A stretch of 64,000 nucleotides of DNA. It comes from Tubiluchus corallicola (taxonomy: Eukaryota; Priapulida; Priapulimorpha; Priapulimorphida; Tubiluchidae). Shown in pieces: positions 1,930-56,900 of this stretch (within the stretch, counting starts at the first letter, position 1; each line of letters starts with the position of its first letter). The DNA lies in assembly GCA_030141605.1 (NCBI GenBank), contig JAQGDQ010000237.1, positions 57,501 through 121,500 of the forward strand. Direction: 5' to 3'. Position numbers and translations under genes: made by a program. The notes under the pieces were generated by a model. The model did not search any database, was not told the DNA's origin, and saw only the letters and a program-made list of their open reading frames with translations.

Positions 1930-2044
1930 GTTTTCCGTAAATTTAGAAACATTCCATTTTACAGAAACTATAGCGTGTCAAAAAAACTTCACAAATAGCT
2001 TCAATAAAGAATTTAAGAAAACTATGAACAAAACTTATAACCAA

Positions 2045-2760
2045 CTTACCCACCACCATGTGATACACTACCAGTGGCATAACAAAAGTCACAGCTAACT
2101 TACCCACCACCATGTCAAACACTACCAGTGGCATAACAAAAGTTACAACCAACTTAACCACCACCATGTCATACACTACGAATGGAATAACAAAACTTAC
2201 AACCCACTTACCCACCACCATGTGATACACTACGAATGGAATAACAAAACTTACAACCCACTTACCCACCACCATGTGATACACTACCAATGGCATAACA
2301 AAAGTTACAGCCAACTTACCCACCACCATGTGATACACTACCAATGGTATAACAAAAGTTACAACCAACTTAACCACCACCATGTGATACACTACCAATG
2401 GTATAACAAAAGTTACAACCAACTTAACCACCACCATGTGATACACTACCAATGGTAAAACAAAAGTTACATCCAACTTACCCACCACCATGTGATACAC
2501 TACGAATGGAATAACAAAACTTACAACCAACTTACCCACCACCATGTGATACACTACCAGTGGCATAACAAAAGTTACAACCAACTTACCCACCACCATG
2601 TGATACACTACCAGTGGAATAACAAAACTTACAACCAACTTACCCACCACCATGTGATACACTACGAATGGAATAACAAAACTTACAACCAACTTACCCA
2701 CCACCATGTGTTACACTACCAGTGGAATAACAAAACTTACAAGCAACTTACCCACCACCA
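2045..2760 (-). repeat. 54-bp minisatellite copying the receptor's TM2 end and splice donor
   Basis: Thirteen complete 54-bp units follow the receptor exon. Each encodes an 18-residue copy of the TM2 end (MVVGK-LVVSFVIP-LVVYH type) and most carry the exon's 5' splice site GGGTAAGTT. Three units read GGTTAAGTT instead and lose that donor. The unit is a multiple of three and has no stop in the receptor frame, so translation stays open for about 254 codons to 1943. The exception is the first extra unit, where TAT became TAA (2713-2711). The array straddles the exon-intron border and would normally be spliced out from the first donor. Confidence 0.9.
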
Positions 2761-53900: not shown

Positions 53901-56900
53901 TGAATAGTTCTTTCACAAACTGCAGGAATTATATTAATTAGAAAAATTTAACAAAAATTAATCTGTACAATAATTTCTAAGATTAATTCAATATGAGGCT
54001 GTTAGTGCTAACGAATCACCTTCACTCTGTATGTATACTCATTGTTTTCCCGGATTAAAATTAATTCATTATGAGGCTGTTAGTGCTAACAAATCACCTT
54101 CACTCTGTATGTATACTCATTGTTTTCCCGGATGTCCTGAGTTCCCACGCTGACCCATTCCTGACAGTTTGTCTCAAGCTTGTGACTTCTCTGCGTTTTC
54201 TTCGTTCCGGAGGAAATGCTCGCGATGAAAAAATGCGCACGGTGAACATCATTCAATAGCGCCACTCTTGTCAAACGCTCCTGGAAAAGCAAAATGCAAT
54301 TATCTCAATGTTAAGCCGTGAAAACTCATTTTATCATCTCACTGAGTTTTAAGCAAATATTCCAGGCTGTCAGTAAACATCCTCAAAGAAAAGAGTGGCC
54401 ATATTGTAGATAATTCTCATAATTTCTGTTACCTCAAAAAACATTGATATAAACATTTAATGGTGTCTTAAATACCTCTGCAAAATATAATTTTAAATAC
54501 TAAATGTCTACTAATGAGGAGTTATTCGAAATTAAATGCGCTAAATTACAAAAAAATTATTGAAAAATAAATATTCAGTTACACAATGTAATGATAAATT
54601 CCAAGAAGAAGTTATTAGAAGCTTGAAGATTATTAGATGAAACATTATTATTAGATTATTATATCTGTAGTCTTCAATTTTTTTCAAATTTTTTTCACTT
54701 TATGCATTCCCATAAATTTCAAAATGCATTTGTGACAATCGACGGCCAAGTCATGAATGTAAGAATAGTTAATACAAATAATAACCTTTGAAGAAAGAGA
54801 AAACATCCATGATTGTGAACAACGCTTGCTGGAAACAGTCATGGATGAGTCTGATCCACAAGTCAGCTTTACGTAATCCAGCTTCTCTGTCATCACTTTC
54901 TCTGGATTATTAGCCTGCATCCACCTTTCCACTAACTGCTCCATGTAACTAACAAAAAACAGGATAACAATCAAAACCCTGAATGAAAAAACATACATGT
55001 CATTCAACCTAACTGAATCTAATGCAGGGGTGTGCAAATTATCTGACTAGCCGGGCCACATTAAACTTTCCCGCAATTCCTGCGGGCCACAGGCAGTTTG
55101 ATCAAGGAGCCAAGTACAGAAAGGCCTAATAATGATTTTTTTGCATCCGACCTTCGTACATCATTACTACTACACTCAAGAAACTATTTTAGAAGTTATT
55201 AAAATTTATATTACAAACCATATATTTCTACTTTCAGGACAGATAGTGGTAATTTTATTACAATGCATATTAGTAATGTGTATCACACAGTCTGTGTAGT
55301 ACAGTGACATTAAGCTACAACCATCTTGTACGGGTTAATGGCATCCGGATCTAGTAGAAAAAACTACCCGCACTATCTTTGGCATCGTGGCACGGACTTC
55401 AGCTGGATACACTCAATTAATCGCCAGGGCACTTTCATTAGGTTGAAAACTCTCTTCGCGGGCCGCACAAATTCTCTCAGCGGGCCGCTATTTGCACATA
55501 CCTGATCTAATCTAATCATACTGAATAAGGGAATATTTACTAATTAAGACGAATTAGGATTTCTCCTGAAAAAATGACATACCTTAGATTCAAAACAAAT
55601 CTGTCAGCATTAAATTCTACACAAGATTTCTATCATAGAGAAATTGATAATAATAAATGAGCCTCGTCTGACAATTTAGAGTTTAAGCAAACACGAGAGC
55701 ACACAAAGTGGTACAGTACACGTAACTAACAACAATGCAATGGCAATGCATTGCTAGATAACTCCTATCATTTACTTATAAATACTAATCCTTGCATAAC
55801 AATCTGATCTACCCAACATAAGTTCTTGCTTAGACCAAGAACAGAAGAGGACAAGTTACCTGTTCCCCTGAAGATGTTTCTCTTTTGCTTTCTGCATTTT
55901 CATCTGACGGTACTCAAACCGATCTCTCCATTCGAGCAGCTCCTCTTCACTGTGTGCATCGCAGCAGGCGTCTCCAAACTTGCAATGTCCCCCACTTACA
56001 AATCTAAAAGAAATTCTCAATACAAGTCTGTCAAAACTGTTCACTGCACGTACATGTTGTAAATGAAAAATTGATTGTTGTAAATACTGAAAAATTTGGA
56101 TTCAAAATGTTCCTATCGTTATAGTAAACAAAGCAAGCTGGTGTTAGTAACATATTAGGCACTCAGTGACCTTGAATTTGAGCTTCCTATGAAATTTACC
56201 ATAAAAAACAGTTTTTACCAGCCAGTTTTACTGAGTAAGTAAACTATTTTTCTTTTTTAAATCCATCTGTTTCCTGATTTGGCGCTTAAGTAACCCAATA
56301 ACCAGTTGCAACTTAAATGCTTTACACACAAATATTTTATATATTATAAACTCTTGACAAACAGGATTGATCCATTATCAATTATTACTAATATCAAACT
56401 AATAACTACAATAAAGCATACGTTTGGCAAATGATATACTGAGCAGTCGTCAATCCTCGGGGAGGCGGTCGGTGCCGCCACTCCCGACCTTCATCTGACA
56501 GAATAATGCACTGATGGCTTTCCGATCTACAATGTGTTTCCAACTCTGCACTCGTCTTGCATGTTATATCACAGAATGTACAGTACAGCTGGTCCGATTC
56601 ACGATTCTTCGTATTCTTCACGGCTGAAAATCAAGATGCACATAGACTGAAACACTCTGGTTCTAAGCACAAAATGGCAGCTGAAGCACAAAAACGCCAA
56701 TGTGGACAGATGTGAAAAATGATATTAATAGTAGGCTATTGTAAATCAAGCCGGGAGAGTAATAAGCCTCTTCACAGCTTCGTTGCATGCACGCGCACTT
56801 AAGGTATTTCAAAGGTAAAGTGTAGCACAGCAACGCATCTTAACTATACAAGCATCACATGACATGTGAGTGAAGCAAAGCTGTCTGTCACTTCAGCCAA

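Follow-up and report, generated by a model that had tools for sequence, protein, structure and literature searches.

The stretch of DNA considered here raises the question of why several of its exons are followed by tandem copies of their own border with the next intron, and whether the 5' splice site (donor) itself has a part in starting such minisatellites. The stretch, referred to below as the window, is 64,000 nucleotides long and corresponds to positions 57501-121500 of contig C2263 in a 343.5-Mb eukaryotic assembly. Two genes on its minus strand bear on the question. The first, HELZ, was recognized by an exon-by-exon match to a human HELZ guide sequence, and 16 consecutive HELZ junctions were placed by spliced alignment. 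The second is represented by a single exon at low coordinates, which encodes TM1-TM2 of an amine-type class A GPCR (Pfam 7tm_1, E 1.6e-12), and whose nearest solved chains are 5-HT2A and then, among others, D2. Since the following receptor exon was not found, the end of this exon at 2752 is a putative donor, placed by the donor consensus and by where the 7tm_1 match ends. The junction set used comprised 17 donors (16 of HELZ and the putative receptor donor) and 16 HELZ acceptors. Rfam and tRNA searches returned no matches. The exons with repeated borders are as follows, a slash marking the exon-intron border:

2752..3103, minus strand: receptor exon (amine-type GPCR, TM1-TM2), defined by the 7tm_1 match, the nearest chains and the putative donor GGTGG/GTAAGTTG; on its 5' side the coordinate marks where the open frame stops, not a mapped exon start.
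54098..54280, minus strand: HELZ exon with donor 54098 (AAG/GTGATTTG), from spliced alignment, junctions 3 and 4.
52194..52441, minus strand: HELZ exon with donor 52194 (CCAG/GTATATGG), from spliced alignment, junctions 5 and 6.
50904..51123, minus strand: HELZ exon with donor 50904 (TAAG/GTAACTAA), from spliced alignment, junctions 6 and 7.

The sequence-only reading, according to which four exon borders are each followed by tandem copies of the border itself, was confirmed by TRF and spliced alignment, the receptor donor being a putative one. The four arrays are:

2027..2801, minus strand: 54-bp array, 14.4 copies, over the putative receptor donor 2752 (TRF), with 50 exonic nt inside it and GT conserved in 11 of its 14 copies.
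53978..54133, minus strand: 78-bp array, 2.0 copies, over HELZ donor 54098 (TRF), with 36 exonic nt inside it.
52025..52204, minus strand: 42-bp array, 4.2 copies, over HELZ donor 52194 (TRF), with 11 exonic nt inside it.
50244..50911, minus strand: 49-bp array, 14.0 copies, over HELZ donor 50904 (TRF), with 8 exonic nt inside it.

An 18-mer centred on each donor had further intron copies within 700 nt (12 for donor 2752, 1 for 54098, 3 for 52194 and 13 for 50904), and these copies were spaced by multiples of the unit, a few indels aside. Growth of the arrays runs intronward; the exon and its own donor are intact and stand upstream of every copy. Local alignment of the four units with one another gave no score above that of shuffles in any of the six pairs. 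When part of the receptor array, the one array used in this way, was searched against the whole genome, no match beyond its own locus was found. The units being unrelated and the receptor array matching its own locus only, the independent origin proposed earlier for the arrays is supported. A false tandem expansion produced at these sites by the assembly is a remote prospect: odd inverted repeats do occur elsewhere in the assembly, e.g., two identically scoring myosin genes on contig C917, but the copies in the arrays differ mutually, and the same kind of structure is present at several independent loci.

The repeats could also be traces of intron gain through tandem duplication of AGGT-bearing segments. 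We consider this extremely improbable, since the repeats are on the donor side only, none of the 16 acceptors having a nearby copy. In addition, the receptor intron occupies a position that we take to be common to vertebrate 5-HT2 and D2 genes; that intron would therefore be old, which argues against its gain by this route. In its favor, the route is described in excerpts of one paper for a potato gene (PMC4974935) and is proposed in excerpts of another for amphioxus globins (PMC3087553). The potato RdRp case resembles the present one in that a tandem duplication took place at a splice site, but a new intron was reportedly made there (PMC4974935), whereas in the present case the intron already exists, and of its two splice sites only the donor is repeated.

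A closer likeness is to the mirages of amphioxus, as the sequence-only reading had noted; excerpts of two papers describe them as border-spanning tandem copies that carry splice signals (PMC3087553, PMC3902484). The name was reportedly given in amphioxus Adh3, and mirages were then found in globin genes at both 5' and 3' borders, with reported units of 10-72 and 150-160 bp (PMC3087553); TnC and PGBD5 were added as further cases (PMC3902484). As far as these excerpts go, the amphioxus examples (Adh3, BflGb6, BflGb9, TnC, PGBD5) share with ours minisatellite-like copies of the border, units of tens of bp, the splice signals carried by them, and their occurrence in several unrelated genes of one lineage. 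Here, the border is spanned in four arrays (at three mapped HELZ donors and the putative receptor donor), the unit is 42-78 bp, and GT is in register in most copies. Unlike the amphioxus mirages, which the same sources place at 5' and 3' borders, the arrays of the window are at donors only (4/17, versus 0/16 acceptors). Also, RT-PCR reportedly pointed to regular splicing in amphioxus, where length or somatic variation is described. Human internal tandem repeats in segmental duplicates are likewise minisatellites at exon-intron borders of genes, according to excerpts of PMC2812944; those repeats vary between recent paralogues and reportedly form novel introns.

To what use, if any, the copies could be put is indicated by the reading frame. 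In all four arrays an in-frame stop codon precedes the second donor, so that only the first donor can lead to a full-length product. The GT dinucleotide was in register in 11 of 14 receptor copies, in all 13 scored copies of the 49-bp HELZ array, in all 3 scored copies of the 42-bp array, and in both copies of the 78-bp array; it was lost in 3 of the 14 receptor copies. One copy each of the 49-bp array (at 50463) and of the 42-bp array (at 52065) was omitted from conservation scoring for reasons of register, leaving 13 of 14 and 3 of 4, and the 78-bp array, with two copies, was left out of it. The donor 9-mer was not exceptionally conserved, as 13 of 54, 14 of 49 and, in the three-copy set, 6 of 42 windows of the unit varied no more. 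A back-up or regulatory use of the extra donors, which would explain their retention, is thus very unlikely, even though GT is kept in most copies, and the earlier suggestion that extra donors are favored finds little in these results to recommend it.

It had further been suggested that four such donors greatly exceed the number to be expected if minisatellites were placed at random. TRF analysis of the window yielded 44 rows, which, once merged, left 25 arrays with a period of at least 10. Arrays occupy 14.8% of the window, and their share of the 16 mapped HELZ introns is 21.5%. With this coverage, the presence of 4 of 17 donors in arrays has a P of 0.22 on rotation and of 0.25 on free placement, and random points in HELZ introns had a nearby copy about as often (98/480) as donors did (4/17). 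The suggestion therefore does not stand as worded, low P values being obtained under other nulls only. There is a real, if minor, possibility that the pattern is a coincidence, i.e., that in a minisatellite-rich 64-kb stretch arrays lie anywhere in introns and four happen to touch donors. Some observations do not agree with this. The arrays overhang the exons by at most 50 nt, which is not the behaviour of rigid objects placed at random; when exonic overlap was limited to 60 bases per array, 0.48 arrays were expected over donors (P 0.0003, post hoc). A founding-unit null, in which only one unit must hit the donor and growth then runs into the intron, gave an expectation of 0.30 arrays over donors (P 0.0003), a P of 0.003 for donors and acceptors together and, for the HELZ core alone, a P of 0.012 for donors and 0.066 for both kinds of sites, all of these values being post hoc. 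None of the 16 mapped HELZ acceptors was in an array or had a nearby copy; the P for so few acceptor hits was 0.076 under free placement, 16 being a small sample, and the donor-minus-acceptor difference of 4 had a P of 0.0077 under the same null. The donor-side character of the pattern within the window is in this respect upheld. Of HELZ exonic bases (15 exons between the 16 junctions), 55 of 2580 were in arrays, versus 3950 of 18370 intronic bases, and all 55 belong to the overhang of the three HELZ donor arrays. All tests on the window are post hoc, the window having been picked for the feature. We conclude that an excess over chance at donors depends on the null, being absent by coverage and present when a founding unit or limited exon overlap is assumed. 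When the nulls are read together, donors behave as intron interior, and acceptors and exons are protected.

Three more HELZ arrays come close to a junction, which in each case lies outside the array (TRF and spliced alignment):

44553..44922, minus strand: array with a main period of 78, starting at base 12 of the intron that follows HELZ donor 44934.
36825..37098, minus strand: 54-bp array, starting at base 41 of the intron that follows HELZ donor 37139.
35479..35593, minus strand: 53-bp array, 2.2 copies, with its end 8 bp short of HELZ acceptor 35471.

Array starts crowd donors, an array being found within 50 bp of 6 of 17 donors and of 1 of 16 acceptors. Such crowding would be expected from donor-specific seeding, in which the 5' splice site or the nascent RNA (through U1 binding, pausing or R-loops) promotes the first duplication, so that arrays are born at donors genome-wide; the low P of the founding-unit null also favors it. 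The crowding is post hoc, with a free-placement P of 0.085 for 6/17, and the similar frequency with which random intron points are repeated argues against seeding.

Genes elsewhere in the genome gave a different picture. Out of 48 neighbouring exon pairs of myosin and CCT genes that passed distance and profile-gap filters, 45 yielded a junction and 3 none; arrays contained none of the donors or acceptors of these 45 junctions. All 45 were retained, including some that are weak because of a low score or a large length mismatch; two of them, which belong to the inverted pair of myosin genes on C917, effectively count double. Minisatellite coverage in these regions was 2.3% of 203 kb of exon-centred sequence, in which some contigs look prokaryotic. 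The window is therefore minisatellite-rich, and its 4/17 is not a general rate. The low coverage of the other regions and the absence of arrays from all 45 donors are in line with coincidence, and the latter also counts against seeding. In four further 5-kb stretches few arrays were found, the longest of 134 bp.

Several other observations were made on these loci. A partial copy with 4 mismatches lies 304 nt from one of the 45 donors, outside any array; we took it as chance. The G+C content of the sampled loci is about 35%. For one muscle-myosin exon, the closest solved chains were 3jbh (507 bits), 7kog (479 bits) and Myosin-7 (475 bits), which we take to be tarantula, insect and vertebrate myosins, respectively; an amphioxus host is on this basis unlikely. 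Intronless Cpn60/TCP1 matches of 565 bits were considered archaeal, a reading that was dropped for contigs C1923 and C1917, which also carry spliced kinesin exons; these two are more likely host contigs.

The whole genome was searched for three tandem copies of donor-like motifs separated by gaps of 20-50 nt (20-60 nt for CAGGTAAGT), and matches were compared with those of the reversed motif. The arrays found in this way were identified by their motif letters, and their donors are putative. For the strongest donor consensus, AGGTAAGT, 1423 triples were obtained versus 102 for its reverse; single occurrences numbered 18866 and 13452, respectively, so the raw excess of triples per occurrence is about 10-fold. 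The corresponding triple counts were 503 versus 150 for AGGTGAGT, 454 versus 35 for CAGGTAAGT and 197 versus 113, i.e., little excess, for AGGTATGT. The acceptor-like motif TTTGCAGG gave 94 matches at 20 loci, versus 9 matches for its reverse; counted singly, it was about twice as frequent as the donor consensus (20 versus 9 in 239 kb of unique sequence). A mutated donor, AGGAAAGT, gave 616 triples versus 87. This control is not clean, because 13 of 16 listed AGGAAAGT loci were spaced at 42 bp, as in a dispersed satellite with both AGGTAAGT and AGGAAAGT in its unit. The same satellite accounts for 6 of 13 listed AGGTAAGT loci.

Matches listed were grouped into loci by hand, contig number being a poor proxy for genome share. 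Among those on contigs C1-C92, there were 7 AGGTAAGT loci once the satellite was set aside (one being microsatellite-like), 4 of TGAATGGA, 5 of AGGTGAGT, 1 of AGGTATGT, 1 of TTTGCAGG and, without the satellite, 0 of AGGAAAGT. On contigs C1-C557, the listed loci numbered 12 for CAGGTAAGT, 11 for TGAATGGA, which is one base shorter, and 5 for TTTGCAGG, and on C1-C836, 12 for AGGTATGT and 11 for TGAATGGA. As a rough estimate from these motif counts, the excess of loci would be two- to four-fold for the two strongest donors, with none for the third.

A genome-wide process, which the sequence-only reading had thought worth documenting, finds some support in the excess of triples of the strongest donor consensus over its reverse and in the lower number for TTTGCAGG; part of the excess, however, is a dispersed satellite, and AGGTATGT shows little. 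The same two points, together with the 0/45 donors of other genes, go against the associated idea that something about the donor region starts slippage. Seeding gains from the triple counts of AGGTAAGT, AGGTGAGT and CAGGTAAGT, and loses by the satellite, by the count for the mutated donor, and by the near equality of AGGTATGT and TGAATGGA loci; on all the evidence we hold it to be rather unlikely.

We favor the explanation that the arrays are minisatellites of the mirage type, and that the donor-only pattern comes mostly from selective filtering of neutrally born arrays, in a stretch rich in minisatellites; we would give this explanation about an even chance of being right. A short tandem duplication would begin with a unit that by chance straddles an exon-intron border, with 8-50 exonic nt ending up in the array and the rest being intron, and would grow into an array via slippage, unequal exchange or break repair. 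The first donor is the first transcribed, and co-transcriptional splicing may commit to it before the decoys appear; donor-side arrays would be tolerated because the true donor is upstream and is transcribed first. At the acceptor side, the first transcribed copy would be the decoy, and duplications there would be eliminated; the same would hold for arrays lying within exons.

Such a filter is consistent with donors being repeated at about the same rate as random intron points when acceptors are not repeated at all, with the scarcity of array bases in exons relative to introns, and with the low P of the donor-acceptor difference. It also agrees with the stop codon ahead of the second donor in every array and with the GT losses in receptor copies and the unexceptional conservation of the donor 9-mer, neither of which suggests that copies are retained as donors. 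Amphioxus mirages, at least in excerpts of the papers on them, reportedly leave regular splicing undisturbed, that of the globin genes included (PMC3087553, PMC3902484). Other results point away from the filter. The founding-unit and limited-overlap expectations would mean a real donor excess, the genome-wide excess of AGGTAAGT and AGGTGAGT triples exceeds what filtered random births predict, and GT is kept in every scored copy of the 49-bp HELZ array. Judging from the acceptor-side cases that excerpts describe in amphioxus (PMC3087553, PMC3902484), an acceptor filter would be leaky. Plain coincidence and donor-specific seeding are the main rivals of the filter account.

The class of repeat is already known from amphioxus, and a genome-wide donor bias is unproven; among the matches listed in the open-licence literature searched, there was no genome-wide donor test of minisatellites. 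If the bias fails, the arrays show how minisatellite-rich introns can mimic donor preference, and they remain examples of introns in which the true donor is followed by about a dozen apparent competitors. It is doubtful, though conceivable, that the 5' splice site is a preferred birthplace of minisatellites, with strong donors (AGGTAAGT, AGGTGAGT) over-represented in arrays genome-wide, acceptors much less so, and several donors of one gene-rich stretch turned into arrays, through a splicing- or transcription-coupled duplication outside amphioxus. If that were true, the birth of minisatellites would be linked to splicing or to nascent RNA. Mirages would then reflect a process more widespread among animals, and a source of raw material from which new splice sites and introns could be made.

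Within the window, an array lay no more than 50 bp away from 6 of the 17 donors (16 from HELZ and one from the receptor gene), versus 1 of the 16 HELZ acceptors. Two more HELZ arrays each start inside an intron:

44553-44922, (-) strand: HELZ array starting at intron base 12, donor not included
36825-37098, (-) strand: HELZ array starting at intron base 41, donor not included

Another array, within a long open frame (27278-28261, (-) strand) that falls in the HELZ span towards its C-terminal end, is probably a coding minisatellite, judging from its translation into repeated 12-residue units:

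27649-28022, (-) strand: 36-bp unit, 10.4 copies

Elsewhere in the assembly, the motif searches revealed two further groups of sites:

C29:99722-99938, (+) strand: tandem array of AGGTGAGT, located within a CCT-like gene and on the same strand as the gene
C2:1252837-1253848, (-) strand: cluster of 13 AGGTAAGT sites, spacings recurring approximately every 302 bp

The array on contig C29 is flanked by exons of the CCT-like gene at 95867 and 109605, and is a candidate for a further donor array. The C2 cluster looks like a higher-order array. Among the matches listed in the whole-genome searches, a 42-bp satellite (unit AGGTAAGTCAAATGTAGACACAGGAAAGTTCAAATGTGACTT) was dispersed in the genome; it was recognised by its sequence letters on contigs C17, C38, and C46, and by its 42-bp spacing alone on C92, C96, C112, C130, C169, C256, C285, C389, and C424. 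On C17, C38, and C285, arrays of this satellite occupy opposite strands, with a few kb between them.

Two myosin II exons with equal scores were found on one contig, in opposite orientation and ca. 70 kb apart:

C917, near 20 kb and near 93 kb: myosin II exons (loci L005 and L006)

Their neighbours match too, and the pair stems either from a large-scale inverted duplication or from the way in which the contig was assembled.

Full-length or nearly full-length Cpn60/TCP1 frames without interruption were observed at loci L039, L040, L041, and L043-L049. Two scored ca. 565 bits, on contigs that also carry kinesin exons, a third scored 508 bits (C2279), and seven more, on further contigs of possibly bacterial origin, scored 171-261 bits. 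The uninterrupted frames are possibly retrogenes, together with symbiont or contaminant contigs.
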